IMG/VR virus record: IMGVR_UViG_3300033143_001962
Coordinates: 1-64,000 of that record
Strand: one strand, 5' to 3'
Source of the DNA: a virus
Length of the DNA: 64,000 bases
Part shown: positions 1,598 through 29,743 of the stretch, piece after piece
Position numbering within the stretch: position 1 is the stretch's first letter
How the letters are laid out: each line of letters starts with the position of its first letter
Made by a program: the position numbers and the translations under genes
Notes under the pieces: generated by a model
The model's input: the letters and a program-made list of their open reading frames with translations, nothing else
Database searches by the model: none
What the model was told of the DNA's origin: nothing

Positions 1598-1605
1598 TAT
1601 TTATC
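1598..1605 (-). promoter_or_regulatory. T4-type late promoter box (GATAAATA)
   Basis: GATAAATA on the minus strand at the 3' end of the SGNH hydrolase gene. It gives an untranslated leader of roughly 75 nt for the gene starting at 1515. Confidence 0.5.
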
Positions 1606-2443
1606 AAGTTTCAGCATTTGGGTTGGCAATTAAGTTATCAATAATTCCTAATGATTCATTGAAGAAATGATCTGCTACCCGTTCATGCCAATCTGAATCA
1701 GGATGCATTCCATCTCGTGCGCCTGTGTTCATTACAAAAGGATTGTTGTCTTGCATTTGGTGCTGTATTAGTGTTTCAACTACCGGGTTGCAGAAGAATG
1801 ACGAGTAGTGGCTGTGGAACATCGTTCTCAAAAAACTTAAATTTTTTCTAAAATTAAATAACAAGTAGTCTTCATCTACAAGTTGTTTCGGAAAGCCTGA
1901 ATCTTCAATGGCAGTCTGGATTATTTTTCCATCGTTGTGTTCGTACGGTAATTCTAAACGTGTAATTGGTGGCCAGTACACAAAGACTAAGTGAGGCTTT
2001 AAGTCTGCATCGACTTTGTAAATAGTACGAGTAACATAATCAGAACTTGCGCCGCTTGTGGATAGATTATACGCTACTACAGACTGCGTGGTATAATCTG
2101 CTATTTTTTGTTTTAACTTATTAGCCCAAATTTCATGCTGATCAACACCAACACCAACTGACATACTACACCCTACGATAAGAATTCTAAAGGCCGCTTC
2201 ATCGTAAAAACTATCTGATCTAAAGCCGTGCTCGTTAAATGTGTACTTGATATCTTTTTCGTACTGTGCGTTCTCAGGCGTGTCAGTATCCAACCAATCC
2301 ACTGTCATGTTAGGCGGATACATGTTACTTGTTGGTAGTTCCTTATCCCATGCTGTCCTTGCGCTTGTATTGTAAAGCCGTTCCCTTTGCTTCCAGGTCA
2401 TACTTTTTTCACCGGGCTTCCAAAATACAATATCACCGGCCAT
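1604..2443 (-). CDS. SGNH/GDSL-type hydrolase or acyltransferase-like protein
   Basis: 279 residues from the ATG at 2443; an in-frame GTG at 2455 is the alternative. A 'FNEHGFRSDSF' lead-in is followed by the block-I-like ILIVGCSMSVGVGV with the probable nucleophile Ser93, an N-L-S-T-S-G-A block near residue 126, and a C-terminal D-x-x-H arrangement in HPDSDWH. This order fits SGNH esterases and polysaccharide O-acetyltransferase-type enzymes, and the GFR lead-in is typical of the latter. The likely target is an ester on host or virion glycan. The start region overlaps the preceding membrane miniprotein by 46 bp in another frame. Confidence 0.7.
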   Translation of the reverse strand: MAGDIVFWKPGEKSMTWKQRERLYNTSARTAWDKELPTSNMYPPNMTVDWLDTDTPENAQYEKDIKYTFNEHGFRSDSFYDEAAFRILIVGCSMSVGVGVDQHEIWANKLKQKIADYTTQSVVAYNLSTSGASSDYVTRTIYKVDADLKPHLVFVYWPPITRLELPYEHNDGKIIQTAIEDSGFPKQLVDEDYLLFNFRKNLSFLRTMFHSHYSSFFCNPVVETLIQHQMQDNNPFVMNTGARDGMHPDSDWHERVADHFFNESLGIIDNLIANPNAET

Positions 2444-2577
2444 GCTAATGCCCACGCTATTAATCGTATTATGTAATTTATAATGCTACTTGAAACACCA
2501 GACGTGTGTTGAATATACACCCAACATACTGCACCAATCACACAATACAGTAAAACAAAAATATCTATTTCAATCAT
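2398..2577 (-). CDS. Membrane miniprotein, 59 residues
   Basis: A minus-strand frame from ATG at 2577 to TGA at 2398 encodes 59 residues. A hydrophobic N-terminal segment (IFVLLYCVIGAVCWVYI) and a second one (IIRLIAWALAWPVILYF) predict two membrane spans, followed by a basic tail PVKKV. The start overlaps the previous stop as ATGA, the standard coupling in this gene block, and the 3' end overlaps the SGNH gene start. Such a protein could be an inner-membrane factor (lysis or superinfection related), but the sequence does not show which. Confidence 0.65.
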   Translation of the reverse strand: MIEIDIFVLLYCVIGAVCWVYIQHTSGVSSSIINYIIRLIAWALAWPVILYFGSPVKKV

Positions 2578-2924
2578 CGCACGTTCGGCTGTGGGTGTGG
2601 TAGACGTTCCGGTTGTGCTATCGTGTTGTATATAATTGTTAACCAGTGCTTATCTGAATTCTCAATAACATTACCAGTTTCGTCTAAGTAACCGGGTTGT
2701 ACTTCTTCGGTCATTTTATTAATAACGTCACATGGTACTGCCAGTGTGTCATTACCACTGTTGTAATAATTTATCATTTCCATCACGGTATCGTGATCGT
2801 ACTTGCCTGCGGCTTCTGTTCTAAAACAGTATCCAGCATTTTTTGGATTCCATAATGTAATATACGGGTCTTCTTCTTTAGTGTGCTTTACGCTTACTAT
2901 GTAGTACTTACTTATGTTTTTCAT
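2574..2924 (-). CDS. Conserved hypothetical phage protein ('YIT-W-P-AGY')
   Basis: 116 residues. It starts YYIVSVKHT and contains PYITLWNPKNAGYCFRTEAAG, a pattern I recognise from short uncharacterised proteins of many phages and prophages that carry IT.W.P...GY and an AG.Y segment. It lacks the W-x-K-L element of its neighbours. It is coupled to the next gene by ATGA and overlaps the previous gene by 17 bp. Function unknown. Confidence 0.65.
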   Translation of the reverse strand: MKNISKYYIVSVKHTKEEDPYITLWNPKNAGYCFRTEAAGKYDHDTVMEMINYYNSGNDTLAVPCDVINKMTEEVQPGYLDETGNVIENSDKHWLTIIYNTIAQPERLPHPQPNVR

Positions 2925-3156
2925 TTGCTAGGCCTTTTAGTTGTTCAATCAACTCTTTATCAAGTTCTTCTCGGATTCCAATGGCTAATTCTCTTGCCAT
3001 GAAGTCTTGGAATGTTTCTGTTGGCGCTCCATGTTGTAATCTGTGCCATACCTTTTCTTCTTCGGTCATGCCCGCTTCGTCATCAGAAGGCATTATGTCT
3101 GTACCTCTGATATCCCAATTAGCCATTAGTGGGTTAGCTGGTTTTTTATTAGTCAC
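2908..3156 (-). CDS. Small W-x-R-L protein carrying a gp23 helix-like segment
   Basis: 82 residues. Around residues 30-41 is EEEKVWHRLQ, the recurring W-x-[KR]-L element of this block. The C-terminal LAIGIREELDKELIEQLKGLA aligns without gaps to gp23 residues 198-218 of this same phage: identities include L, A, I, E, D, E, L, L and A, and most other positions are conservative. A 21-residue helical match alone is only suggestive, but two other proteins in the cassette carry different gp23 pieces. It overlaps both neighbours. Expected to be soluble, charged and helical. Confidence 0.65.
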   Translation of the reverse strand: MTNKKPANPLMANWDIRGTDIMPSDDEAGMTEEEKVWHRLQHGAPTETFQDFMARELAIGIREELDKELIEQLKGLANEKHK

Positions 3157-3454
3157 TCATCTTTCCTCTTAATTCGCTTCTGCGTCCTGATATTATAATT
3201 AAATTATTACTTTTTGCAAAGTCCATTAAATGTTTGTACATTCCAGGCGCTTCTTCTTCGAGTCTATCGTCGATACATAATCCTGATGCACTGTGCTCGT
3301 CTACGAAACACGGGTGTACGTACTTGTGATATTGCATACGTTTATTAGCTCCGAATGATGCGGCGGTTCCTGCTAATCGTTTACACCAATCGCTTGGTCT
3401 GAACTTTTTACCTTCTGTAGTTATTCCTACTATTAATTTTGTCGGGTCTGGCAT
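3149..3454 (-). CDS. DUF3579-like protein
   Basis: 101 residues. IVGITTEGKKFRPSDWCKRL, then a conserved middle with CFVDEHSASGLCIDDRL, and a late FAKSNNL segment follow the pattern of the DUF3579 family as I know it from beta- and gamma-proteobacteria (…TxDGxxFRPSDWxERL…FAxxNxL). Length is close to a full domain. It is one of the few genes in the block that looks like a complete bacterial protein rather than a phage-specific module. Biochemical role unknown. An AGGA ribosome-binding site precedes the ATG. Confidence 0.6.
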   Translation of the reverse strand: MPDPTKLIVGITTEGKKFRPSDWCKRLAGTAASFGANKRMQYHKYVHPCFVDEHSASGLCIDDRLEEEAPGMYKHLMDFAKSNNLIIISGRRSELRGKMSD

Positions 3455-3474
3455 TTTAATCCTAAATGTTTCTG

Positions 3475-3666
3475 CTATTTAGCCCCGGATAATAACTTCC
3501 AATCTTTTCCATCATACGTCCACATGTCATCCGAACTGTGATCGAAGTAGATGCTGCCGGCTATAGGTTTAGCAAGCGGGTCACTAGTGAATTTTGGACC
3601 AGTGTATTTTAATCTATCCCAGACTTCTTGCTGCTCTTTAGTTAATTGTGGTGTACGTACTGACAT
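3475..3666 (-). CDS. W-x-R-L protein with a tail-fibre repeat unit
   Basis: 63 residues from ATG at 3666, chosen because GGAG lies 9 nt upstream; a longer in-frame extension to 3822 overlaps the previous gene and is unlikely. Residues 10-20 carry EQQEVWDRLKY. Residues 37-61 (starting GSIYFD, ending LLSG) match the two-copy unit of this phage's tail-fibre-like protein at 52847-54340 (GQLWFDS…VFNG and GDMWFDT…VYDG): G-x-[ILM]-[WY]-F-D-x5-[LM]-x-x-[YF]-[DN]-G-x-x-[FW]. Such units are widespread in phage tail proteins, so ancestry could be another tail gene. Confidence 0.6.
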   Translation of the reverse strand: MSVRTPQLTKEQQEVWDRLKYTGPKFTSDPLAKPIAGSIYFDHSSDDMWTYDGKDWKLLSGAK

Positions 3667-3961
3667 GCAAGTCTGCTCCGTCAGGTGGAGTTGATTTGAA
3701 CTGTATGGTAGTTGTTGCATTACTTTCAATACTGTAATCAAGTTTATGGCGTAGTTTGCAGCCGTCTTTAAAGACTTCGAATCGCACCTTCTCCAATGTA
3801 AGTGATGGTAATGCAAATACATCGCCCCAACCGTTACCTGTGAAGTGGTTTACACTTATTAGCCGGTCGCTAGCCTGCCTTAGTATATTCCACATTTCCT
3901 TTTTAGACTTAAATGCTTTTGTTATTGTTTTCTTAGGAAGTTTCATTTTAGTCTGCGCCAC
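3638..3961 (-). CDS. W-x-x-L protein with a giant-baseplate-protein-like repeat
   Basis: 107 residues. A basic N-terminus leads to KKEMWNILRQ, a variant of the W-x-[KR]-L element. The C-terminal half (V-x-F-E-V-F-K-D-G…DYSIES…IQFKSTPPDGADLHVSTY) has the same pattern as the repeats of the 4342-residue protein encoded at 39102-52130, for example one with AIDGNIQRPRYDYTLAGNVL. It overlaps the preceding gene by 19 bp and the following one by 29 bp. Function unknown; a repeat unit expressed alone is the visible feature. Confidence 0.6.
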   Translation of the reverse strand: MAQTKMKLPKKTITKAFKSKKEMWNILRQASDRLISVNHFTGNGWGDVFALPSLTLEKVRFEVFKDGCKLRHKLDYSIESNATTTIQFKSTPPDGADLHVSTYTTIN

Positions 3962-4218
3962 ATTTCCCTTTTGTGATTCTCTTTACGCTCAGCTTTATTT
4001 CTTACATGCACAAAACGTTTATGCTCTACTATCTCATCTAAGTACGGGCAGTTAAACGCAATTTTATCTATGTCATAACTTTGCCCTACTGCTTGACAGG
4101 AGGTAGCAATGTACACACCATCTTGTGATCCGTCAGGCGAGCAGGCATCAATCTCCCACTCAATGTACTCCTGGCATTGTTTATTCCAGCAAAATTCGTT
4201 AAAGACTATGTCAGACAT
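3943..4218 (-). CDS. Cys-rich NEFC-family protein ending in W-x-R-L
   Basis: 91 residues from ATG at 4218, which overlaps the previous stop. The order NEFCWNKQC…EWE…SCQAVGQSYDI…NCP resembles small cysteine-rich bacterial proteins that may bind a metal. The protein ends REMWRRLK, placing the W-x-R-L element at the very C-terminus. Paralogous to the genes at 4211-4522 and 4959-5234. The longer in-frame extension to 4344 is rejected because it runs through the upstream gene. Confidence 0.65.
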   Translation of the reverse strand: MSDIVFNEFCWNKQCQEYIEWEIDACSPDGSQDGVYIATSCQAVGQSYDIDKIAFNCPYLDEIVEHKRFVHVRNKAERKENHKREMWRRLK

Positions 4219-4522
4219 ATTGTAGTATCCTCCAAATCTTTTCCTTTTTCTTTTGCTTCTGCTCTTCTGCCCATTCCTTTTCAAACAGAAATTTTGCGCG
4301 GGCGTTAGTAACATGCCAATCAACCATACCTTGCAAATGCACACAATTATGCGGGTACGTAGGAATGTTTTCGTCGTTGTCTAAGATCTTAGAGCATGAT
4401 GCATATTCAACAGTGGACACATGAGTTATAAAACCATCTTCCATAATTAATTCTTCGCCGTACTCACTATAGCACTCGCACTCAAAATGATCTCTGCAAA
4501 GTTCGTACCAATTATAACTCAT
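4211..4522 (-). CDS. Cys-rich NEFC-family paralog ending in W-x-I-L
   Basis: 103 residues starting MSYNWYELCRDHFECEC, related to NEFC…C at 3943-4218, with later SC and NCVHL positions matching the SC…NCP of its paralogs. The C-terminus KKKEKIWRILQYV is a variant of the shared W element. The start overlaps the previous stop as ATGA. Probable metal-binding small protein; partner unknown. Confidence 0.6.
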   Translation of the reverse strand: MSYNWYELCRDHFECECYSEYGEELIMEDGFITHVSTVEYASCSKILDNDENIPTYPHNCVHLQGMVDWHVTNARAKFLFEKEWAEEQKQKKKEKIWRILQYV

Positions 4523-4731
4523 TTTAATTTATCCTCAGGGATGGACATTGCATCGTGTATCCTCTGCATGTACTGTTCTCTGAATTTATGCATCGTTGGC
4601 TGCACTGCTGTTTTAATAACATCTATATCTATATCTGCCCATCTATGCCAGCCAGTCTTAGGCTTGTTATCACCTTTAAGCTTATCCCACATTATCCACT
4701 TAGCTGTCTTTGTTTTCTTCGTCTTTTTCAT
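4519..4731 (-). CDS. W-x-K-L protein with 'GDN-P-K-TGW' linker
   Basis: 70 residues from ATG at 4731. A lysine-rich start runs into IMWDKLKGDNKPKTGWHRWAD; the same W-[DN]-K-L-x-GDN-x-P-K-TGW linker occurs in the P-loop protein at 6000-6311, so the two share their N-terminal module but not their C-terminal parts. The rest is a charged helical segment I do not recognise. It overlaps the gp23-fragment gene upstream by 32 bp. An in-frame extension to 4800 is unlikely. Confidence 0.6.
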   Translation of the reverse strand: MKKTKKTKTAKWIMWDKLKGDNKPKTGWHRWADIDIDVIKTAVQPTMHKFREQYMQRIHDAMSIPEDKLK

Positions 4732-4969
4732 ATTCTGCTCTGGCTTGTGCAAACTGTTTGTTAGTAATCGGGAGGCCGTGTATCGTCCCGTAAATATCAT
4801 CGTCAGACATTGGCTGTATGCCTACTATATCATTTGCTAATAGTGTTGGCATTACCTTTCTAATCATTGGTATCACTATACTATCAAACCCGGGCTTGTG
4901 TACTTTCTTCAAAGCCCTGAATGTTTTTTGTGCGTCACTTATTGTCTTTTTAGTTAGTTTAAAAGACAT
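4700..4969 (-). CDS. Small protein carrying an N-terminal segment of capsid protein gp23
   Basis: 89 residues. Residues 30-55 align without gaps to residues 59-84 of this phage's gp23: 15 of 26 are identical (P, I-R, VMPT, AN, VG, QPMS) and nearly all others conservative (RKVMPTLLAND against RRVMPTVIANE). The IHGL that follows matches IHTL of gp23. The N-terminal part has KTFRALKKV, a Phe variant of the W-x-K-L element. It is a free-standing gene in the early small-gene block, far from gp23 and not a broken copy of it. Confidence 0.75.
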   Translation of the reverse strand: MSFKLTKKTISDAQKTFRALKKVHKPGFDSIVIPMIRKVMPTLLANDIVGIQPMSDDDIYGTIHGLPITNKQFAQARAEYEKDEENKDS

Positions 4970-5234
4970 CTATGTACACCGGCATGTTGTTGATCCTTTT
5001 TAAGCTCTTTTCGGGCTCTAATAATTTCTTCCACATCATATCTTTTTTCTTTGCTTCATGCTTTGCTTTCTTAATATCTTCCATGTGTGGGCAATTTTCC
5101 GCTATCTTTAAAATATTAAATGTAATCTTGCTGGTGCCGATGCTGCATGTTATACACCTACCTACTTGCATTTTAATATCAGCGAAGTGCTTACACTCCT
5201 TTGCTCTGCAAAATTCGTTAAAGTTATACGCCAT
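4959..5234 (-). CDS. Cys-rich NEFC-family paralog with W-x-K-L near the C-terminus
   Basis: 91 residues from ATG at 5234, chosen because MAYNFNEFC then lines up with MSYNWYELC of its paralog; ATG at 5243 is the alternative. Cysteines fall in NEFCRAKEC, then CITC, then AENCPHME, as in 3943-4218. KKDMMWKKLLEPE is the W element, here followed by about 17 more residues. Likely metal-binding; function unknown. Confidence 0.6.
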   Translation of the reverse strand: MAYNFNEFCRAKECKHFADIKMQVGRCITCSIGTSKITFNILKIAENCPHMEDIKKAKHEAKKKDMMWKKLLEPEKSLKRINNMPVYIDVF

Positions 5235-5457
5235 TCCTATCATTATACACTTGATTGAGCAATGGTTCTACACCTTTGGATACATCGCGTATAACGCCAG
5301 GGTAGAATGAACTAATATCGTAATCGACTATATGCACACCTGGTTTCATTACGTGTCCTGTCTGTGACAGACGTTTCCACATTGCATCTTGCTCGCGTTT
5401 TAATTGCTTGCGCAAGCCGTTGCGTATTTTACGTTTAGTAATTTCTATTGCATTCAT
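5224..5457 (-). CDS. W-x-R-L protein with a family-B DNA polymerase motif A segment
   Basis: 77 residues. A basic helix leads to EQDAMWKRLSQTG. Then HIVDYDISSFYPGVIRDVSKG follows the motif A pattern of family-B polymerases (D-x-x-S-[LF]-Y-P-x-[IV]-I), which in T4 gp43 reads D-L-T-S-L-Y-P-S-I-I-R. The final segment V-x-P…QVYNDRNG is reminiscent of a downstream gp43 segment (VP…KVFNQRK). At 77 residues it cannot polymerise. The start overlaps the previous stop as ATGA. No polymerase gene is in the window for direct comparison. Confidence 0.6.
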   Translation of the reverse strand: MNAIEITKRKIRNGLRKQLKREQDAMWKRLSQTGHVMKPGVHIVDYDISSFYPGVIRDVSKGVEPLLNQVYNDRNGV

Positions 5458-5585
5458 TTATCATCTGGCTCGTTGAATATTATTTTAGCATTTTGGTAAT
5501 CTACCTGAAGCGGTATATACGGGCAATATATATAACCTGCGTTTACCTCTACTTCCACTGGAACGAATTTTAATTTGTCCCACAT
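5454..5585 (-). CDS. 43-residue W-x-K-L protein carrying a C-terminal gp23 motif
   Basis: ATG at 5585 with AAGGA just upstream gives 43 residues starting MWDKLKFVP; a TTG at 5618 would add 11. Residues 18-24 are YCPYIPL, identical to gp23 residues 338-344 of this phage (also YCPYIPL), and the downstream V/I-rich strand is similar in character. The stop overlaps the next start as ATGA, the same coupling as its neighbours, which supports it as a real gene despite its size. Confidence 0.65.
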   Translation of the reverse strand: MWDKLKFVPVEVEVNAGYIYCPYIPLQVDYQNAKIIFNEPDDK

Positions 5586-5601
5586 TATTTCCTTATCTGT
5601 T

Positions 5602-6003
5602 TTATTCGTGTTGTCCAAACTCTACTCTCTCGGCCATATTTTTCTTAATTTGATTCTGACGGTTCATATTATGAATTGTTCTAGCAAACGATGAGCGACA
5701 TAATACTGTTAAATACGAATACGCATTGCTACTCTTAGTTTCATCGTATCTGTGATAGTACCGTAACATATTAGTAATTGCGTCTTGTATTAAGTCCTCA
5801 GCGTATGTAAACGATTGAAAATTTTTCCTAGTTAATTCTTTCTCTGCTAAATGTACAAGGTACTTTGCTAAGTTGCCAGTCGTTTGTTTAATCAGTTTCG
5901 AGTGACGTATTGCTTCGCGTAACTCTGCGTTGGTTGTGATCTCAACTTGGTTGTACCATGGTGCTTTTAACTTACGCCAAAATAATTTTTGTTCTTTGTT
6001 CAT
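5602..6003 (-). CDS. gp55-like sigma-factor paralog with N-terminal W-x-K-L
   Basis: 133 residues starting EQKLFWRKLKAPW after MNK. The rest aligns along its length with this phage's gp55 (28673-29653): TTGNLAKYL against TTGNLAMMY, then TYAEDLIQDA against TYNDEMQGQA, ETKSSNAYSYLTVLCRSSF against EMKSQNPFAYYTAAVTNSF. These are the sigma-2-like region and flanking helices. It lacks the long N-terminal and insert regions of gp55 (326 residues). It could compete with or replace gp55 on RNA polymerase at an early stage. ATGA coupling to the previous gene. Confidence 0.75.
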   Translation of the reverse strand: MNKEQKLFWRKLKAPWYNQVEITTNAELREAIRHSKLIKQTTGNLAKYLVHLAEKELTRKNFQSFTYAEDLIQDAITNMLRYYHRYDETKSSNAYSYLTVLCRSSFARTIHNMNRQNQIKKNMAERVEFGQHE

Positions 6004-6311
6004 ACAGAAGACGATTCAAAGTCTATTAGAATGGGGCTGTTTTTAGTACGTACTGCCCGGCCAAGACTCTGGAAAGCGATCATACTTTTCCCTACACCAG
6101 ACTGTGCTGTGAATCCATTTATGAAGCTACGGTTAATACCGTGCATGAAGTTTGATGCTTCTGCAAGATTCCGCCAACCTGTTTTCTTAGGTGTATTATC
6201 GCCACTAAGCTTGTTCCATATTTGCGAGGGTGTGCCGTGTATCTTTTCAAACTGCTTACGTTTGCCGTTTGCTATCTTACGTTTATTAATCTGTACTTTA
6301 CTTTCTTTCAT
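6000..6311 (-). CDS. W-x-K-L protein with a truncated P-loop RecA-like segment
   Basis: 103 residues. PSQIWNKLSGDNTPKKTGW is the shared module and linker also seen at 4519-4731. It is followed by GFTAQSGVGKSMIAFQSL, a Walker A loop (G-x-x-x-x-GKS), and PILIDFESS, which has the position of the second strand of RecA/UvsX-type ATPases. The chain stops there, so no Walker B or DNA-binding loops are present and ATP hydrolysis is unlikely. It looks like the front third of a RecA-like core. ATGA overlaps on both sides. Confidence 0.65.
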   Translation of the reverse strand: MKESKVQINKRKIANGKRKQFEKIHGTPSQIWNKLSGDNTPKKTGWRNLAEASNFMHGINRSFINGFTAQSGVGKSMIAFQSLGRAVRTKNSPILIDFESSSV

Positions 6312-6463
6312 CGTGGTCCTGTATTCTTTGTTGGCTGTTTCATCGACAAAAATATACTAGATAGTAATTTCCATTCTTTCTGTGCTTCGGTGAGTGGAGG
6401 AGTGCTTAACTTCTTCCACATTTCGTGCTGTTCTCTTTCTTCTTTTGTTTTAAATATTTTCAC
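6308..6463 (-). CDS. Small W-x-K-L protein, 51 residues
   Basis: GTG start at 6463 with AGGA upstream gives 51 residues: a charged helix, then QHEMWKKLSTPPLTEAQKEW and a basic tail. A longer in-frame reading to 6526 would run through the upstream gene and has no ribosome-binding site. The segment after the W element is not recognised. It overlaps the upstream gene by 14 bp and the downstream gene by ATGA. Confidence 0.55.
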   Translation of the reverse strand: MKIFKTKEEREQHEMWKKLSTPPLTEAQKEWKLLSSIFLSMKQPTKNTGPR

Positions 6464-6743
6464 GGTGCTTCCTGAGTTTTGCTTTTGCTTGTACCCGTGT
6501 ACTAAAATCCGTAGATTCCACATCACGCATCAAATTTGCCAGTGCATCCCTTTCTTGTGCTAATCGTTTTTCTTCTTCGTAGTCAACATCAGCAGACATC
6601 ATTCGTGCTCTAATTCTGACAGACATATCCTGATCTTTACATAATAAATCCAAGTGCTTGCGGGTATGGATTAGCTCAATCTTTTCTTCTTGCGTCAGTG
6701 CTGAAATACGTAGCACATCAAATAAGTCTGTTTCAGTTGTCAT
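6450..6743 (-). CDS. Helical 'LTQ-EK' family protein
   Basis: 97 residues, strongly helical and charged. DLFDVLRISALTQEEK and RKHLDLLCKDQDMSVRIRARM match the gene at 8065-8349 (DLFTIIKLNALTQYEK; NKHLDYFENDDDSEVRRYARK), so the two are paralogs; the D-x-S/E-V-R-x-R/Y-A-R repeat is HEAT-like. No W-x-K-L element. It overlaps its upstream neighbour by 11 bp. Function unknown. Confidence 0.6.
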   Translation of the reverse strand: MTTETDLFDVLRISALTQEEKIELIHTRKHLDLLCKDQDMSVRIRARMMSADVDYEEEKRLAQERDALANLMRDVESTDFSTRVQAKAKLRKHRENI

Positions 6744-6900
6744 ATAACGTTTTCTTCTTGCCCATTGTTGCCATTAAGTACGATCTGACTAGATAATTAT
6801 CTTGTACCGCGAAGTTAGGATCAATCCAATATGACTCAACGGCATGCTGAATGCTTCCGTACTTTAATTTTAAAAATGTTACCACTTGTTCAATTTCCAT
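6733..6900 (-). CDS. LKYGS-family small protein
   Basis: 55 residues from ATG at 6900 to TGA at 6733. VVTFLKLKYGSIQHAVESYW carries the family signature ([LF]-x-L-K-Y-G-S-x-x-x-A-x-x-x-[WY]). It is the first gene behind the promoter at 6950-6979 and heads the long cassette that runs down to about 1.6 kb. Function unknown. Confidence 0.65.
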   Translation of the reverse strand: MEIEQVVTFLKLKYGSIQHAVESYWIDPNFAVQDNYLVRSYLMATMGKKKTLYDN

Positions 6901-6949
6901 TTCTAATCGCCAATAGCCGCTTGTTTATGAGGTTGCGCTTTTAAGCTAC

Positions 6950-6979
6950 ATAATAACATTTTATGTTATAAAAAGTCAA
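6950..6979 (-). promoter_or_regulatory. Sigma70-type early promoter
   Basis: TTGACT (6979-6974) and TTATTA (6956-6951) separated by 17 nt, or TATTAT with 18 nt. It is one of a set of near-identical promoters in this block and lies 50 nt upstream of the gene starting at 6900. Confidence 0.65.
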
Positions 6980-6986
6980 GTATTTG

Positions 6987-7328
6987 CTAAACATCATTTG
7001 CCAAAATTGCTGTGGCTGATGGCTTTATGCGTTTACGATCGTTGTCGTACTGAGCTGTAGCAATTTCAATACTGCTTAAATGTTTTAATAATGAGTGGAG
7101 TTTTTTATCTTCGTTGCCTAACTTTGACCACATAATGTCTTTGCTGAACAAGGTGCGAATCGCGTTAACGTTTGTTTCAATTCTTTCTAACCTGCCATTG
7201 AACTCGCCTACGTTTCCATTGTGCTGCCGGACCGTGTGTGCGAGCTTAGTTTTCAACCCCGAAATTTCATCGTCTTTGTCACGGAGTTGTTGTTGCAGGT
7301 CTCTAATTAAATTCTTCTTAGCTGTCAT
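6987..7328 (-). CDS. Coiled-coil protein with W-x-K-L
   Basis: 113 residues. Residues 1-60 have heptad-like leucine/isoleucine spacing (IRDLQQQLRDKDDEISGLK), predicting a coiled coil and oligomer. KDIMWSKLGNED is the shared W element near the middle. The C-terminal 40 residues are unassigned. It has its own promoter at 7381-7409 and an AGGTGA ribosome-binding site. Confidence 0.65.
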   Translation of the reverse strand: MTAKKNLIRDLQQQLRDKDDEISGLKTKLAHTVRQHNGNVGEFNGRLERIETNVNAIRTLFSKDIMWSKLGNEDKKLHSLLKHLSSIEIATAQYDNDRKRIKPSATAILANDV

Positions 7329-7380
7329 AAATCACCTAAATGTTATCAATACTACGCTTTCTTACTACGACTACGAGCTA

Positions 7381-7409
7381 AGTATAACATTTTTTGGTGC
7401 AGAAGTCAA
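7381..7409 (-). promoter_or_regulatory. Sigma70-type early promoter
   Basis: TTGACT (7409-7404), 17 nt spacer, TATACT (7386-7381), followed by TAG. It drives the coiled-coil gene at 6987-7328. The -35 box overlaps the stop codon of the upstream LKYGS gene. Confidence 0.75.
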
Positions 7410-7582
7410 GCTTTTCGCTTATTTAGGTTAATAAAGTTGTAATTATTGTATTGTTCTTTGGAGTACAGTAGGAGTGCTTTGTGTTCGTCGTTGGATAGAT
7501 TGATATCATTGTTGACCCAAAGGTCGAATGCGTTTGTCATGCTGCCGTACTTGAGAATTAGAAAGGTTTTTGCCTGGTCCAT
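7406..7582 (-). CDS. LKYGS-family small protein
   Basis: 58 residues from ATG at 7582. KTFLILKYGSMTNAFDLWVN is a near-consensus copy of the family. The C-terminus NLNKRKA ends on a TGA that is part of the next gene's -35 box. Its own promoter is at 7635-7663, so it is a single-gene transcription unit. Confidence 0.65.
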   Translation of the reverse strand: MDQAKTFLILKYGSMTNAFDLWVNNDINLSNDEHKALLLYSKEQYNNYNFINLNKRKA

Positions 7583-7634
7583 AGTAAATATTTACCATAG
7601 TACGGCTTTTTACGTGGGGGCGCTTTTGACCCTA

Positions 7635-7663
7635 AGTATAACGTTTTGTTATTTAAAAGTCAA
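7635..7663 (-). promoter_or_regulatory. Sigma70-type early promoter
   Basis: TTGACT (7663-7658), 17 nt, TATACT (7640-7635), then TAG. Same layout as 7381-7409; it overlaps the end of the gene at 7660-7869. Confidence 0.75.
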
Positions 7664-7869
7664 GTTTTTATTAGCAGTTTGAAGAACATTGCGTCTTGCT
7701 CTTGCTCAAACCAGAAGACTGGGGCGGTGTACTGATATATAAATTTGCCAGTGGTGTGCTTGCTGCACCATGCGGATAGTTCTAATAGATTATTTTTACT
7801 ATGTGTGAATGATACTTTATACCATGTGTTTCTATCAAAGGCATCGTAACATTCTTGATTCTTTTTCAT
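7660..7869 (-). CDS. Small protein with degenerate W element (EQDAMFFKLL)
   Basis: 69 residues. The sequence around FWFEQEQDAMFFKLLIKT repeats the EQDAM[WF]x[KR]L pattern of 5224-5457 with Phe in place of Trp. The preceding FIYQYTAPVFWFE resembles short phage proteins with a 'fwFe..DA..FkL' ending, so here the element may belong to an older family. Function unknown. Confidence 0.55.
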   Translation of the reverse strand: MKKNQECYDAFDRNTWYKVSFTHSKNNLLELSAWCSKHTTGKFIYQYTAPVFWFEQEQDAMFFKLLIKT

Positions 7870-8072
7870 CGGAAGTTATTTATTTTTTTCAGTATATCAA
7901 GCAACTCCGGAATGTCCGGGTGTAAGTCCGGATCAATGCTATCCAGCCAGTGCTTGAACTCTTGGTCGTATTTTTGTATATTGATTTCTTTAATGAGCTC
8001 TAATTTCTGCTCGGTGGTTAAATACTCTTTGGTTAATCTATGCCACAGTTCTTTCTTTTCTTCTTCACTCAC
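7866..8072 (-). CDS. Small W-x-R-L helical protein
   Basis: 68 residues. EEEKKELWHRLTKEYLTTEQ puts the W element right at the N-terminus, followed by LELIKEINIQKYDQEF, weakly similar to the LTQ-EK helical family. Acidic and helical. The start overlaps the previous stop codon region. Function unknown. Confidence 0.6.
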   Translation of the reverse strand: MSEEEKKELWHRLTKEYLTTEQKLELIKEINIQKYDQEFKHWLDSIDPDLHPDIPELLDILKKINNFR

Positions 8073-8349
8073 TTTGCCATCCTAGCGTTTTAAGTTGTTT
8101 GTTTATTCTAACGTACTCTTGTTTATGCTTTTGCTTTCTTGCGTATCTTCTAACTTCACTATCATCATCGTTTTCAAAATAATCTAAGTGCTTGTTACTA
8201 GCAATGCATAACATCTTTTCGTACTGAGTGAGGGCGTTTAATTTTATAATTGTGAATAAATCTTCCATAGCTATGTCTGTGTTTTTGCGCTTGGGCAACT
8301 CACTTCGTGCCTTGCGTTCTCTCTGTAAGTTACAGTCGAACCTACTCAC
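8065..8349 (-). CDS. Helical 'LTQ-EK' family protein
   Basis: 94 residues from GTG at 8349, which has AAGGAG upstream at close spacing; ATG at 8268 (67 residues) is an alternative that would match the start of its paralog at 6450-6743 better. LNALTQYEK and DDDSEVRRYARKQK are the paralogous blocks. It is the first gene behind the promoter at 8374-8403. Function unknown. Confidence 0.55.
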   Translation of the reverse strand: MSRFDCNLQRERKARSELPKRKNTDIAMEDLFTIIKLNALTQYEKMLCIASNKHLDYFENDDDSEVRRYARKQKHKQEYVRINKQLKTLGWQSE

Positions 8350-8373
8350 CAAGCTCCTTGCTTTCGCAGACTA

Positions 8374-8403
8374 AGCATAACATATTTTAGAGGCAAAAGT
8401 CAA
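8374..8403 (-). promoter_or_regulatory. Sigma70-type early promoter
   Basis: TTGACT (8403-8398), 18 nt, TATGCT (8379-8374), then TAG. It drives the three-gene cassette 8065-8349, 7866-8072, 7660-7869. Confidence 0.65.
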
Positions 8404-8418
8404 CCGAGGTTTGCCAAA

Positions 8419-8859
8419 CTAAACGTTGTCGTTTTCATGTAGGCGTGTGTATAATGATAGTGCTAAATCAAATTGCATAATATGTGACATTATCCAGGGA
8501 CGGATTATCGATACTAAGTAGTATCCCATAACTTTTGGATTATGCGATAACTGTGATGTGTCAGCAACTTGATGACGTATATCATTGTGTGATTCTTTGT
8601 GACAATCGGCTGCTAATTTAGGAAATCCAATTCTATGCATTAGTGCTTCTTCGTGTTCTAAATGTGTGTCAACGTAGTCAACTAGCTCATCGTAGTACTG
8701 CTGAATGTGCTCTATTGTTGGGTCATCGTGTGTAATTTCGTTAATAATATTATTGCATAATTTAAACAGATTTCGGTGTTCGTTATCTATTTGTAAGTCG
8801 CCTGTTTCAAGGTCAGGTTGCCATTCTAACGGCGTTAGATTATCGGATTGTGGGGTCAT
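8419..8859 (-). CDS. Bacteriohemerythrin
   Basis: 146 residues, the normal length of single-domain bacterial hemerythrins, which bind O2 at a diiron site. All seven expected ligands are visible in the right order: His28 (DNEHRNLF), His66 and Glu70 (THLEHEE), His87 and His91 (HKESH), His126 and Asp131 (HIMQFD), within the W…L…G…ID.EH / EE.LM…GFP / W…HI…D framework. There is no signal peptide, so it is cytosolic in the host. It has its own promoter at 8892-8920. A phage copy may buffer or sense oxygen or scavenge iron or NO; that role is inference. Confidence 0.92.
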   Translation of the reverse strand: MTPQSDNLTPLEWQPDLETGDLQIDNEHRNLFKLCNNIINEITHDDPTIEHIQQYYDELVDYVDTHLEHEEALMHRIGFPKLAADCHKESHNDIRHQVADTSQLSHNPKVMGYYLVSIIRPWIMSHIMQFDLALSLYTRLHENDNV

Positions 8860-8891
8860 TGTATAGTCCTATTTTAAGTTAGCTATTAGTA

Positions 8892-8920
8892 ATTGTAGCA
8901 CGGAATCGCACCAAAGTCTA
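8892..8920 (-). promoter_or_regulatory. Sigma70-type promoter of the hemerythrin gene
   Basis: TAGACT (8920-8915), 17 nt, TACAAT (8897-8892), 33 nt upstream of the hemerythrin ATG. It is slightly different from the TTGACT/TATACT set, so regulation may be distinct. Confidence 0.65.
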
Positions 8921-8942
8921 GTAGTTTTTTATTTATCGTGTT

Positions 8943-9089
8943 TCATTTTAATGCAAAAAATTCGTTAAGCATATTGAATTCTGCTACTGGCATTTTAGCG
9001 ACTGCTGACCAATTCATCATCATATCATATGCTTTTTGTTGTGATCCGTACTTAATAACAATGAATGATTTTATTTCTTCAGTACTCAT
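8943..9089 (-). CDS. LKYGS-family small protein
   Basis: 48 residues from ATG at 9089, which overlaps the upstream stop by 11 bp; a longer frame to 9137 is less likely. KSFIVIKYGSQQKAYDMMMNW is the family block. Last gene of the LKYGS cassette. Function unknown. Confidence 0.6.
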   Translation of the reverse strand: MSTEEIKSFIVIKYGSQQKAYDMMMNWSAVAKMPVAEFNMLNEFFALK

Positions 9090-9261
9090 AAGTGTACGCT
9101 CCTGTTCGGCGATTATTGTCTTTTGCCCATTGTGCAATCAGATCTGATTCTTCTTGTGTAAATGAGGTATCATCAAATTTATACATCCATTCTTCATAAG
9201 CAAGTATCATACTACCGTACTTTAGTACAAGAATTAGTTCAGTGTCTTTACCCGTTTTCAT
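9079..9261 (-). CDS. LKYGS-family small protein
   Basis: 60 residues. ELILVLKYGSMILAYEEWMY is the family block, followed by an acidic SFTQEESDLIAQWA helix similar to the FTEDEQCMIVGYA of 11086-11277. Overlaps both neighbours. Function unknown. Confidence 0.65.
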   Translation of the reverse strand: MKTGKDTELILVLKYGSMILAYEEWMYKFDDTSFTQEESDLIAQWAKDNNRRTGAYTYEY

Positions 9262-9403
9262 CTGACCACCATTCCATAAATTCAGTTAGCATTGCGTCGA
9301 GATCTGTACCTAAATCGTCACCTGTAAAATTACAATACACCATTACAATGTCATCATTGGACCCGTAACGTAATCTTAAATATGTTAGTACCGCTGGATT
9401 CAT
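9248..9403 (-). CDS. LKYGS-family small protein, divergent
   Basis: 51 residues from ATG at 9403 to TAA at 9248. LTYLRLRYGSNDDIVMVYCN keeps the core (L-R-Y-G-S) but has lost the Ala of the second half. The tail EFMEWWSDENG is acidic. It fills an apparent gap between 9261 and 9400 with the usual start/stop overlaps. Confidence 0.6.
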   Translation of the reverse strand: MNPAVLTYLRLRYGSNDDIVMVYCNFTGDDLGTDLDAMLTEFMEWWSDENG

Positions 9404-9618
9404 GCTTTTAACTTTGCCCACATGTACAATCTATTAATTTCTTCGTCAAACTCAGGTGTGCGTATCGTGTACCCTTTGCCGTTAATTCTATACTGGTAAT
9501 TATCAAAATCGTAAGTCTTAGGTGCAGAGACTCTGTAGTGTCTGACCCAGAACAATGTGCCATTTAAGCATTCGTATACTACATCACGTTGGTGCATTAT
9601 AACCGAGACACTATTCAT
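9400..9618 (-). CDS. 'RINGxxY' family protein ending in W-x-K-L
   Basis: 72 residues. YQYRINGKGYTIRTPEFDEEI followed by YMWAKLKA at the C-terminus. It shares the [FY]-x-[IV]-[NK]-G-x-x-Y-x5-[EA][FY] block with 9933-10124, 10117-10311 and 11277-11516. Overlaps both neighbours by a few bases. Function unknown. Confidence 0.65.
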   Translation of the reverse strand: MNSVSVIMHQRDVVYECLNGTLFWVRHYRVSAPKTYDFDNYQYRINGKGYTIRTPEFDEEINRLYMWAKLKA

Positions 9619-9940
9619 CTTTCTTCTCCGGGACGTGGTCTACTACTAATCTAAGTTCATGCATTGTTAAACGTGTGTACATACCAGGTGGTAGATTTAT
9701 CCAGTAATGATATGCATTAAACACTGACCCGTACTTCCAAATTAGTACCATCTCGGCGTTATCTTTAGTAACATCCAATGTCTCCAGGCAGCCCTGTTCG
9801 CACCATAAATTTAATAGTGGTGGTACATTTTCAACTGTTCTGACTCCTGGCATGTTAACTGCTACTTCAAACGCTGTGATCACTTCTCCGATTGAAGAGT
9901 ACTTAAGTGACAGGAATACTTGCTGTTCATCTTCAGTCAC
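9611..9940 (-). CDS. Tandem (two-domain) LKYGS protein
   Basis: 109 residues made of two family units: VFLSLKYSSIGEVITAFEVA near the N-terminus and MVLIWKYGSVFNAYHYWINL after residue 60. Its length is about twice that of single-unit relatives, pointing to an in-frame fusion of adjacent copies. Overlaps neighbours on both sides. Function unknown. Confidence 0.7.
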   Translation of the reverse strand: MTEDEQQVFLSLKYSSIGEVITAFEVAVNMPGVRTVENVPPLLNLWCEQGCLETLDVTKDNAEMVLIWKYGSVFNAYHYWINLPPGMYTRLTMHELRLVVDHVPEKKDE

Positions 9941-10124
9941 TTAGCTTCTCCCACACACGTTCTTTCTTACGTTCTTCATAAAATGCTTTTCTGTACTCAA
10001 GTGTATTTTCACTGTACAGTACATCGTTAATACGAAGTGTAACCCAGCTTTGTGAAATTGCACTTTGTCGTAGCGTACTGCATACTTGCGCAAATTTACC
10101 ACTGCTTAATTCAATTTCAATCAC
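9933..10124 (-). CDS. 'RINGxxY' family protein ending in W-x-K-L
   Basis: 63 residues. WVTLRINDVLYSENTLEYR matches the family block, and the chain ends ERVWEKLSD, almost identical to the ending EIWQKLSD of the gene directly upstream, so these two are close paralogs in tandem. Function unknown. Confidence 0.65.
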   Translation of the reverse strand: MIEIELSSGKFAQVCSTLRQSAISQSWVTLRINDVLYSENTLEYRKAFYEERKKERVWEKLSD

Positions 10125-10311
10125 TTAGCTTCTGCCATATCTCTGCTTTTTCAATAAATTCTGTTGCTGCTCGTCTAAATGCGTACGAATCTTTTTTGTA
10201 AATAACACCTTTAATTCTGAACGTGTGCCACGCAAAATTAGGATTCTTTAAACGTGGCACATTAGCCTTCACCCAATACCCGCAGTACTTTTCTCTATAA
10301 TGTGCTTTCAT
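10117..10311 (-). CDS. 'RINGxxY' family protein ending in W-x-K-L
   Basis: 64 residues. A basic start, then FRIKGVIYKKDSYAFRRA and the terminal EKAEIWQKLSD. Tandem paralog of 9933-10124, overlapping it by 8 bp. Function unknown. Confidence 0.65.
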   Translation of the reverse strand: MKAHYREKYCGYWVKANVPRLKNPNFAWHTFRIKGVIYKKDSYAFRRAATEFIEKAEIWQKLSD

Positions 10312-10320
10312 ACCCGCCTA

Positions 10321-10497
10321 CTAATAGTTGTGCTCTTGCTGAACAAATCGATAATACCAATCTAACATCTCGTGTCGTTGTACTGTAGTAAACAAATCAT
10401 AATCGCTTCGTAAGTCGCCGTCACGCATTGCGTCGTAAGCGTTAGCCATGCTCCCGTACTTTAATATTAAGAATGTTCTAGTCTTTTCAGGACTCAT
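10321..10497 (-). CDS. LKYGS-family small protein
   Basis: 58 residues from ATG at 10497 to TAG at 10321. RTFLILKYGSMANAYDAMRD is closest to the family consensus. It overlaps the stop of the upstream gene by 11 bp, like the other members. Function unknown. Confidence 0.65.
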   Translation of the reverse strand: MSPEKTRTFLILKYGSMANAYDAMRDGDLRSDYDLFTTVQRHEMLDWYYRFVQQEHNY

Positions 10498-10696
10498 TGT
10501 ACAATTCCTTTATGAAGAAGTCAAGCATCAATTCTTCTTGTTGATTAACATTCATTAAATGGTATGCTATCTGGTCTCCGAATTCAAGCGAGTCATGAAA
10601 CGCATCAGCTAACTGTTCTAAGCCGCCGTGTTTAAGTGCTAAGAATGTGTATTCCTCGGTTGTTATAAAATCATCAAGTTCAACGGTTTCAGTCAT
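10487..10696 (-). CDS. LKYGS-family protein, divergent (LKHGG)
   Basis: 69 residues. EEYTFLALKHGGLEQLADAF is a diverged family block after a 13-residue acidic extension. The protein is strongly acidic overall. It lies in register between two canonical members. Confidence 0.6.
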   Translation of the reverse strand: MTETVELDDFITTEEYTFLALKHGGLEQLADAFHDSLEFGDQIAYHLMNVNQQEELMLDFFIKELYNES

Positions 10697-10697
10697 T

Positions 10698-10886
10698 TTA
10701 ATCCCACATGTACCTGCGTCTGTTCAATTCACTGTCAGTTGCGTAGTAAAAGTAATTGTTCATTATTGTGTAGTCATCCGGCACTTGCTTTCCAACAACG
10801 GTACTAGTATTCATAAAGACTTGATAGGCTTTGTACACCGTACCGTACTTTAAAATTAAATAAGATTTAGTTGCTGCGTAGTTCAT
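10698..10886 (-). CDS. LKYGS-family protein ending in RYMWD
   Basis: 62 residues. KSYLILKYGTVYKAYQVFMN is the family block. The C-terminus RRRYMWD stops right after what looks like the beginning of a W-x-K-L element (MWDKL elsewhere), so the two modules may have been joined here and truncated. Function unknown. Confidence 0.6.
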   Translation of the reverse strand: MNYAATKSYLILKYGTVYKAYQVFMNTSTVVGKQVPDDYTIMNNYFYYATDSELNRRRYMWD

Positions 10887-11086
10887 AATATGATCTTCTG
10901 TACACGTTCAGGAATTATTAAATCACCTTGTTCCTTTTTAGATTTAATATGCGATTGAATAAAGCTTAGTAATTTGTAGTAGTCTGGATCACTGTCGAGT
11001 CCTAGTGATCGCAATGCACTGTACCTAGAAAAGATATGTGCTACGCTTCCATATTTAAGCATAAGGAATGTGTCTTCAGAATTCAT
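10883..11086 (-). CDS. LKYGS-family small protein
   Basis: 67 residues. DTFLMLKYGSVAHIFSRYSA is the family block; the remainder is basic (HIKSKKEQGD). The start overlaps the upstream TAA/ATG junction by one base at 11086. Function unknown. Confidence 0.65.
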   Translation of the reverse strand: MNSEDTFLMLKYGSVAHIFSRYSALRSLGLDSDPDYYKLLSFIQSHIKSKKEQGDLIIPERVQKIIL

Positions 11087-11277
11087 TAAATTAAATCCAT
11101 TGCATATTCCATTGCAGATTTAGTTCTTATCGCAAGATGGTGTGCCCAAGCATACCCTACTATCATGCATTGTTCATCTTCTGTAAAATCAGCATCCCAA
11201 TCATCAGATATGTTATAAGCATCAATGGCATTTTCCATGCTACCGTACTTTAATATTAAGAATGTTTTAATTGGCAT
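11086..11277 (-). CDS. LKYGS-family small protein
   Basis: 63 residues. IKTFLILKYGSMENAIDAYN is the family block, followed by a FTEDEQCMIVGYAWA helix shared with 9079-9261. Second gene of the cassette. Function unknown. Confidence 0.65.
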   Translation of the reverse strand: MPIKTFLILKYGSMENAIDAYNISDDWDADFTEDEQCMIVGYAWAHHLAIRTKSAMEYAMDLI

Positions 11278-11516
11278 TATGATTTACCGTACACTGTGGT
11301 AATTGTAGGGGCAAATACCCCATTCAATGCTGCCCAAGCTTCTAATGGTTTTACTACTTCATCGAACTCATCGGATGGTTTTTCATATATAAACCCATTT
11401 ATTTTAAAGTCAAACCTCTTAAAATTGTACTGGCGATCAGCCATTATTGTTGACTCTCTCCATACGCTGTCAAAGATTTCTCTATTTTTTGAGTACAAAA
11501 TGTCCTGATTAGCCAT
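11277..11516 (-). CDS. 'RINGxxY' family protein with degenerate W element
   Basis: 79 residues from ATG at 11516, the first start after the promoter. FDFKINGFIYEKPSDEFDEV is the family block; LEAWAALNG occupies the place of the W-x-K-L element. It leads the cassette that runs down to 8943. An in-frame extension to 11654 crosses the promoter and is rejected. Confidence 0.65.
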   Translation of the reverse strand: MANQDILYSKNREIFDSVWRESTIMADRQYNFKRFDFKINGFIYEKPSDEFDEVVKPLEAWAALNGVFAPTITTVYGKS

Positions 11517-11546
11517 GGTTATTACCCTTCTGAACGAATATAATGT

Positions 11547-11575
11547 AGTGTAACAGGTTATTTTGGGAAAGTCAA
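11547..11575 (-). promoter_or_regulatory. Sigma70-type early promoter
   Basis: TTGACT (11575-11570), 17 nt, TACACT (11552-11547), 31 nt upstream of the ATG at 11516. It reads the 13-gene LKYGS/RINGxxY cassette. Confidence 0.7.
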
Positions 11576-11608
11576 GCTTTTGATAGGCACTCATTAATAA
11601 ATATATTA

Positions 11609-12091
11609 GTGAACTACTTAATACTAATTGACGTTTGGGGACGATTGTCAACACCGTTAGAGATCATTTGTAAAACTAATATAGCATTATTAATATCTGA
11701 TGTCTCAGACAATCCAAATTGGAAAATAATATATCAGGATTTTGATCCTGATATCGATCCTAAAATTCAGCACGTTTGCAACAATTCAAATAATGCAATA
11801 CCCGAGCACGATTGGGCTAATTTAAAATTAGATTCAAAAGACATAGTGTACTTTGCTGGGTTTCATGCTAATCACTGTTTGTTTGAGAAACCGTTAGGTA
11901 TTGATAATCTATTAAGTTTGCACCCTGCTCAAGAATTTTTTGTGTTATCCGACCTAACATGTGGGCTGAATCAACACACTCCTGTACCTATCAGTGACTT
12001 ATCTATTATTAATTTCAATAATGATTATAGTGTAAAAATGAACATGCGGCGCGCAATGCTGCTCGATAATTTACTTAGTATACAAATTTAA
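11609..12091 (+). CDS. Lone plus-strand protein, possibly isochorismatase-like
   Basis: 160 residues. YLILIDVWG at the N-terminus, then DIVYFAGFHANHCLFEKPLG and EFFVLSDLTCGL, resembles the order of isochorismatase-type cysteine hydrolases (early Asp, then G-x-x-x-x-x-C and a following Asp). The usual lysine and full fold length (about 180-200 residues) are not clearly present, so this is tentative. It stands alone, divergent from the small-gene cassette and convergent with gp23, and ends at a strong hairpin terminator. No clear promoter was found. Confidence 0.5.
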   Translation: MNYLILIDVWGRLSTPLEIICKTNIALLISDVSDNPNWKIIYQDFDPDIDPKIQHVCNNSNNAIPEHDWANLKLDSKDIVYFAGFHANHCLFEKPLGIDNLLSLHPAQEFFVLSDLTCGLNQHTPVPISDLSIINFNNDYSVKMNMRRAMLLDNLLSIQI

Positions 12092-12146: not shown

Positions 12147-13337
12147 TTAGCTGAAAGACAAGTTGCTTACGCTGATTTCGCCTAAGTAATCACCAGCATT
12201 ACCAAAAGATGATGCAGTGTTAGTGAGTTCCACGTAACCATAACGTGTCATGAAGCTTACAACTGGTTCGAACGTAGACGGATCTAAAACAACGCCTGAG
12301 CTCATTAAAGGAATGTAAGGGCAGTAGAACGCTGGAGCGTCTGCTTCACTTGAACCTTTATAACCAATAAGTACCGGAGTACTATCAGCAGCATATGAAT
12401 CAACATATACTTTCATAGCACTGTTTAATGTACCAACTAACTTAGTGTTAGTAGGAGCTTCAAAAGTACCTTCAGTTGTACGTGCAAATGCAGATGTAGT
12501 AGCTGATTGTAATACTGTTAATGCAGCTGGACTAACAACGGCATAGTTACCTGCGCCACGACGTGTACGTTGTGCGATAAGGTTAGCAGTACGGTTAACT
12601 AATACAGCAAGTGCCGCATGTTCATCACCTACGAATGTAGCAGTACCAGATACAGCAGCTTGATCGTAGTTGAATTCAGTTGACGCTAAAGAACGTAAAG
12701 ATAATAAAATCTCTTGATCGATTTCAGCGGTAATTTCTTGTGCTAATGCAGCCATGATTTCAGCTTCGACATCAATGCCGTGCATTGATTGTGCATCTTG
12801 AGCAGCTTCAAAAGTCCAACGCGCTTGTAACTTACGTGTCTTCGCTTCAACAGCTTGCTTTAAGATTTGAACGGAAATGTTACGACCGCCTTCACCTTCC
12901 ATTTGCGCTGTAGCAGCACCACGGTAGTCAGTCTGTGTAGCACCAACGCCTGCAGAGTATGCTTGAGCAATTTTGAAAGGACTTAACGCTTCATCACCAG
13001 CTGTAGTTGGTGTACCAGCAGCAGATGTATCGTTCATTGTTGAACCGTAACGTACACGTAAAGTATGGATCTGGCTTACTGGACCAGACATTGGTTGAAC
13101 ACCTACTAATTCGTTTGCAATTACCGTAGGCATTACACGTCGAATTACTGGTAAAATTACACGGTTTAATGTTGCAACGTTACCAGCGGCAGTAGCGCCA
13201 CTTGTAGCAGATTCTGCTAAGTGGTTACGAGTGTTTTCTAGGATTACGCCCATTGTAGAACGTTTAGTACCGTCTAGACCTTCAAGCAATGCTTCTTTAG
13301 TCTCTCCCCAACGGCCTTCTAATAGTGCTTGTGACAT
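12147..13337 (-). CDS. 23: Major capsid protein gp23
   Basis: 396 residues of the T4 gp23 family, the shell subunit. Recognisable blocks are RVMPTVIANELVGVQPMSGP (residues 67-86), the helix LAQEITAEIDQEILLSLRS at 198-216, and YCPYIPL at 338-344. It is shorter than T4 gp23 (521), as expected for marine relatives with a reduced insertion domain. The N-terminal helical stretch is probably removed by the gp21 protease. Last gene of the head operon 20-21-22-23, before the bidirectional terminator. Three small proteins upstream in the genome carry separate pieces of it. Confidence 0.97.
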   Translation of the reverse strand: MSQALLEGRWGETKEALLEGLDGTKRSTMGVILENTRNHLAESATSGATAAGNVATLNRVILPVIRRVMPTVIANELVGVQPMSGPVSQIHTLRVRYGSTMNDTSAAGTPTTAGDEALSPFKIAQAYSAGVGATQTDYRGAATAQMEGEGGRNISVQILKQAVEAKTRKLQARWTFEAAQDAQSMHGIDVEAEIMAALAQEITAEIDQEILLSLRSLASTEFNYDQAAVSGTATFVGDEHAALAVLVNRTANLIAQRTRRGAGNYAVVSPAALTVLQSATTSAFARTTEGTFEAPTNTKLVGTLNSAMKVYVDSYAADSTPVLIGYKGSSEADAPAFYCPYIPLMSSGVVLDPSTFEPVVSFMTRYGYVELTNTASSFGNAGDYLGEISVSNLSFS

Positions 13338-29653: not shown

Positions 29654-29681
29654 ACATCTCCTTGTAGCTTTAGATTTAACT

Positions 29682-29709
29682 ATTATAGCACATAAGCATA
29701 ATAAGTCAA
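29682..29709 (-). promoter_or_regulatory. Sigma70-type promoter of gp55
   Basis: TTGACT (29709-29704), 16 nt, TATAAT (29687-29682), 28 nt before the ATG. The same -35 hexamer occurs in the small-gene cassettes. Confidence 0.75.
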
Positions 29710-29743
29710 CCATAATTTATTATATTGGGTTATAATATGTACT

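Follow-up and report, generated by a model that had tools for sequence, protein, structure and literature searches.

A gene for a hemerythrin in the genome of a very large phage raises two questions, namely whether the gene truly belongs to the phage and what its product may do in the infected cell. The gene lies at positions 8419–8859 (minus strand) of a 64,000-nucleotide stretch of DNA, hereafter the window, which is part of the 249,797-bp record (G000) of a T4-like jumbo phage, and it is the single hemerythrin gene of that record.

Family assignment, diiron site, and predicted fold

The open reading frame is intact, with 146 codons, an ATG start, and an AGGA ribosome-binding site. Its product was placed among the bacteriohemerythrins by three profile models, scoring 87.8 bits with NF033749 (bacteriohemerythrin; curated cut-off, 84), 84.7 bits with TIGR02481 (hemerythrin domain; cut-off, 51.75), and 50.0 bits with PF01814 (cut-off, 25.3). 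All seven diiron ligands are present (H28, H66, E70, H87, H91, H126, and D131), comprising five His, one Glu, and one Asp whose order and spacing are canonical, and they were aligned in all rows of two alignments (A1 and A4), lining up with those of bacterial, archaeal, and other viral family members. Both the family and the complete ligand set had been proposed in a preliminary description of this DNA, and both were upheld. The presence of the full set, despite at most about one-third of the residues matching any bacterial relative, suggests that the metal site has been under selection, as judged from these comparisons. The binding of O2 is not readable from the ligands alone, because an identical set can also be used to bind or sense NO.

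The AlphaFold2 model, obtained with the 25-row alignment A4, was a four-helix bundle with a mean pLDDT of 92.9 and helices at residues 22–43, 49–76, 81–104, and 108–142, so the predicted structure agrees with the antiparallel four-helix bundle of solved bacteriohemerythrins. The five best PDB matches of this model in Foldseek were all hemerythrins, with unrelated bundles clearly below them, although the E-values for the hemerythrins were modest (1e-3 to 1e-2); no convincing match was obtained in a viral structure library. The best match to the predicted fold was the hemerythrin-like domain of DcrH (PDB 2avk, 2awc, and 3waq), with TM scores of 0.78–0.80 (query) and 0.86–0.88 (target); DcrH-Hr is the sensory domain of a chemotaxis receptor, whereas the phage protein stands alone. 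The other matching protein, Methylococcus capsulatus Bhr (PDB 4xpw, 4xpx, and 4xpy; NF033749/TIGR02481), with TM scores of 0.72 (query) and 0.80 (target), is likewise a single-domain four-helix bundle with all seven ligands; the window protein differs from it in being phage-encoded and shares about 22% identity with it in the Foldseek alignment. Relative to most rows of A1, the window protein also has a short insertion before H87. Taken together, these data identify a single-domain bacteriohemerythrin of a well-known protein family that is ordinary as a protein and unusual in its location, a very large phage.

Genomic setting of the hemerythrin gene

Since many bacteria but few phages carry hemerythrins, we considered whether a bacterial gene had been wrongly joined to a phage contig during assembly. 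The gene lies in a variable accessory block of small phage genes (2456–12146, minus strand) downstream of the T4-type major capsid protein gene (12147–13337, minus strand), which flanks the block on the right and served as a phylogenetic anchor; the left flank is a GDSL-like gene (1604–2455, minus strand) with a Pfam match below the cut-off and 61% identity to its counterpart in the closest relative, a 6.1-kb contig termed L011. Among named phages, the capsid protein was closest to those of large Vibrio, Sinorhizobium, Pseudomonas, and Erwinia/Serratia phages (63–68% identity), and a related capsid protein is encoded by many IMG/VR records. Members of the same small-gene families lie on both sides of the hemerythrin gene, for example, the "KYGS" family at 9079–9261 and 7406–7582, and the gene shares the strand of its neighbors and their composition (37.4% G+C versus 36–38% in the surrounding stretches). 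No bacterial gene above about 35% identity was found, and promoters of the block's own type occur both upstream and downstream. The claim that the gene is phage-encoded therefore stands: it is physically inside the phage genome, as expected of an auxiliary metabolic gene, and contamination is very unlikely, because composition and strand agree with the neighbors and the promoter belongs to a repeated family; a chimeric assembly is strongly disfavored and, in our judgment, barely credible.

The preliminary description had also given the gene its own promoter, and a promoter-like site, TAGACT-17-TACAAT with TG before the −10 element, does occur at 8892–8920 (minus strand), about 30 bases upstream of the start codon. 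A site of the same family, TTGACT-18-TATGCT, lies just after the stop codon (8374–8403, minus strand). In the block, the pattern T[TA]GACTT-N12-16-TA[TC]NNT was found at six minus-strand sites (11575, 10524, 8920, 8403, 7663, and 7409) and one plus-strand site. When the sequence was resampled 500 times with an order-1 Markov model, such sites numbered 0.09 on average; the contrast with the six observed overstates the certainty, since the pattern was defined after the sites had been seen. The 8920 site (TAGACT) is a weaker one, and a generic sigma-70 scan of the region gave no overall excess (38 versus 35.6). Because one family site lies just upstream and another just downstream, the hemerythrin gene probably forms its own transcription unit, and the sigma-70 form of the block promoters suggests that they are early. 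The T4-type late promoter TATAAATA was also considered and was not enriched in the window (4 versus 8.45 expected). No co-operonic partner enzyme was found for the hemerythrin, the neighbors being small genes without known function, and the flanking gene at 8065–8352, used as a probe, retrieved no relatives.

Several features of the block's short open reading frames were observed in passing. Paralogues of 55–110 aa that start with "TFLILKYGSMxxAY" occur in about 10 copies around the hemerythrin gene (6733–6900, 7406–7582, 8943–9107, 9079–9261, 9248–9421, 9611–9940, and 10321–11277, minus strand), with more in L011 (3520–4200); the one copy tested (11086–11277) had no PHROG match. A W-[KR]-L tag (MWKKL, IWNKLS, or VWDRLK), at either protein end and often joined to unrelated sequence, recurs in many short frames in the window (2908–11654, minus strand) and is common to L011 (3039–4878). 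Short frames with fragments of core phage proteins were observed at 4959–6526 (minus strand), at 233130–233321 of the record (L111), at 4369–4878 of L011, and at 4839–5150 of L100, another viral locus. The fragment at 5602–6003 resembles the late sigma factor gp55 (E = 5e-10 to the phage's own protein at 28673–29713; PHROG late sigma, 7.9e-22). Marginal matches were a capsid C-terminal motif, YCPYIPL, at 5454–5618 (E = 0.006), a DNA polymerase-like stretch at 5224–5457 (E = 0.02), and two portal motifs at 233130–233321 of the record (E = 0.007), and a Walker-A/RecA-like stretch was noted by eye at 6000–6311. Pieces of the capsid protein are present in L100 as well (PHROG major head protein, 1.3e-12), with a weak case in L011. 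Such fragments might act as decoys or in a dominant-negative manner, or they might be duplicates in decay.

Distribution in phages and origin

The contig L011, with a capsid protein 89% identical to that of the phage, shares both flanking genes but has only about 2.6 kb between them; members of the KYGS and W-[KR]-L families recur in this interval, and the hemerythrin is missing. Because a relative with the same flanks is so reduced and without the gene, the block is a high-turnover accessory region of which the hemerythrin gene is a variable member. The absence of the gene from such a relative had been put forward as grounds for doubting its phage origin; we take it instead as the mark of a strain-specific accessory gene and not as evidence that the gene is non-phage. 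No hemerythrin was detected when 50 records encoding related capsids, many of them fragments, were searched with an HMM.

The supposed rarity of hemerythrins in phages is borne out by the annotated phage collection, where tblastn with the window protein gave no match among 50,697 phage records; it holds less well for IMG/VR, which contains about 10 other carriers. One degenerate-motif scan of IMG/VR retrieved 12 loci, 10 of them encoding hemerythrin-family proteins (L090, L092/L096, L094, L095/L097, L098, L099, L100, and L101; L096 is a near relative of L092), and several of these records exceed 150 kb. The encoded proteins belong to the same family and to other lineages, sharing 18–27% identity with the window protein (13% for L095), and in the alignment the C-terminal Asp ligand is missing from L095 and L097. 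No related full-length capsid gene was detected in these records. Matches to phrog_2, which we take to be the large terminase, were found in the records of L098 and L100; that of L092 has a weak Terminase_6N match below the cut-off, L095 lies near a long tail-fibre-like protein, and the other records are taken as viral on the authority of IMG/VR. In a quick tree, the viral hemerythrins fell in several places, mostly on long branches, suggesting that separate origins are likely, though not proven. No PHROG match bore a hemerythrin name, and no paper describing a phage-borne O2-carrier protein was found in the literature searched; as far as could be found, such proteins are not a recognized category of phage cargo. 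The nearest literature case concerns thaumarchaeal integrated elements, among whose COGs is a hemerythrin (PMC6563490).

A donor had been expected from a phylogeny with bacterial hemerythrins. The best bacterial identities to the window protein were about 28–35% in all searches: single-protein scans of viral and genome collections gave no relative, a motif-guided scan gave proteobacterial and other matches of mostly 25–33% identity, and a survey of 369 genomes across classes gave the same range, these genome surveys being samples and not exhaustive. The phylogeny was run and, with the best identity at about 31–35%, it placed the window protein, in the quick version of the tree, on a long branch (1.62 changes per site) without a supported (starred) partner group, and for these reasons we claim no donor.

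These distribution data bear on the main rival to a physiological role for the phage, namely that a functional gene entered a rapidly changing cassette block as a passenger and benefits the phage little, or only in particular host strains. The high variability of the block, the absence of the gene from L011 and the 50 related records, and the failure to find an orthologue are consistent with this explanation. However, the ligands and the predicted fold were kept on a long branch, the promoter belongs to the family of the phage block, and other large phages carry hemerythrins of other lineages, suggesting repeated usefulness. We therefore regard a passenger gene as possible and on the unlikely side.

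Possible roles in the infected cell

Buffering or delivery of O2 in the infected cell is the most likely reading of the phage hemerythrin, and we would give it about an even chance. This role is the best-supported guess because the phage also encodes NadA (Pfam, 255 bits), radical-SAM proteins (one at 33.4 bits; cut-off, 29.5), and a fatty acid desaturase (37.8 bits; cut-off, 29.7), all beyond the window and tens of kilobases from the hemerythrin gene. NadA (quinolinate synthase) and radical-SAM enzymes carry O2-sensitive Fe–S clusters, and desaturases consume O2. The gene for NadA lies in an NAD-synthesis cluster (record positions 110372, 112406, and 114001; L105), between NAMPT-like and NMN-adenylyltransferase-like frames recognized by eye; QueE-, QueD-, and GTP-cyclohydrolase-like frames and further radical-SAM/SPASM-like frames were likewise noted by eye beyond the window, of which the QueE-like one had no Pfam match at E ≤ 1e-4. 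The preliminary description had counted four 2OG oxygenases and two Fe–S radical-SAM enzymes in the window itself. The former are true paralogues, clustered at 58763–62718 (plus strand; 186–210 aa; 32–36% mutual identity), whose 2OG-Fe(II) oxygenase-like HxD...H...R pattern was seen by eye and which matched neither Pfam nor PHROG models at E ≤ 0.01; of the latter, the one gene checked fell below the Pfam cut-off (26.7 versus 29.5 bits). The better O2- or iron-linked partners are the NadA, desaturase, and above-cut-off radical-SAM proteins outside the window.

In the mechanism that we propose, the hemerythrin would be transcribed early by the host RNA polymerase, load two irons, and reversibly bind O2 in the infected cell. 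Such binding would reduce free O2, or buffer it, around the O2-labile Fe–S enzymes brought by the phage (NadA and radical-SAM proteins), and/or provide a local O2 reserve for its O2-dependent iron enzymes (the desaturase and the 2OG-oxygenase-like proteins), with a benefit mainly in hosts with low or fluctuating oxygen. Both activities have bacterial counterparts: HerA and HerB of Campylobacter jejuni protect Fe–S enzymes from O2 damage (PMC4257069), and a methanotroph bacteriohemerythrin has been proposed to bind O2 and deliver it to methane monooxygenase (PMC12607906). HerA and HerB are likewise small stand-alone diiron hemerythrins; they are bacterial and chromosomal, and their function has been tested in that bacterium. 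If functional, the phage hemerythrin would be a natural companion to those enzymes of the same phage that are O2-labile or require O2, and oxygen handling would join the host processes taken over by phages. A broader proposal is that large phages repeatedly acquired hemerythrins as oxygen-management genes, and that O2 control, protecting phage Fe–S enzymes or feeding oxygenases and desaturases, is a general overlooked strategy, for example, at oxic–anoxic boundaries; this is speculative, and we consider it rather unlikely.

Diiron hemerythrin sites bind several small ligands, and the site might instead scavenge NO or affect reactive-oxygen responses during infection. Hemerythrin-like proteins are reported to affect peroxide responses in mycobacteria (PMC4295536 and PMC4660385). 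However, no gene linked to NO or ROS was recognized beside the hemerythrin gene, and the YtfE/RIC iron–sulfur repair model was not among the NCBIfam matches of the window protein at E ≤ 1, making such a role improbable. We see only a slim chance that the protein is an O2-sensing input to c-di-GMP signaling by the phage, which encodes an EAL protein and a separate GGDEF-EAL protein (record positions 151884 and 171342; L107 and L108); in a plasmid survey, hemerythrin-like regions lay under genes annotated GGDEF and EAL (H24 and H47), but the phage hemerythrin is a lone 146-aa domain, about 140–165 kb from these genes in the record. Storage or delivery of iron for the several iron enzymes of the phage is very improbable, since hemerythrins hold two irons per monomer and form no ferritin-like cage, and two irons per 146-aa monomer make a poor store.

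Other metabolic genes of the phage were recorded. Two TctA permeases of tripartite tricarboxylate transporters are encoded at C1 positions 133391–134620 and 233580–234890 (131 and 299 bits; L106 and L111), each adjoining a possible binding-protein frame seen by eye, the one tested being without a Pfam match. No TctA was found in the 19 other virus records searched, and the matches in the phage collection were only 27–33% identical and mostly in short unannotated records. The host could not be called from these permeases, as their best plasmid matches (Alphaproteobacteria) were about 34–36% identical, which is too low. A PgaC-like glycosyltransferase was noted by eye at record position 101918 (L104). 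The phage also carries about 30 tRNA genes (L107:211–6028, L106, L104, and L109), 26 of which form a single 6-kb cluster. Among the tRNA genes is one for an apparent amber-suppressor-type tRNA with anticodon CTA, called as tRNA-Pyl, at L109:15221–15294.
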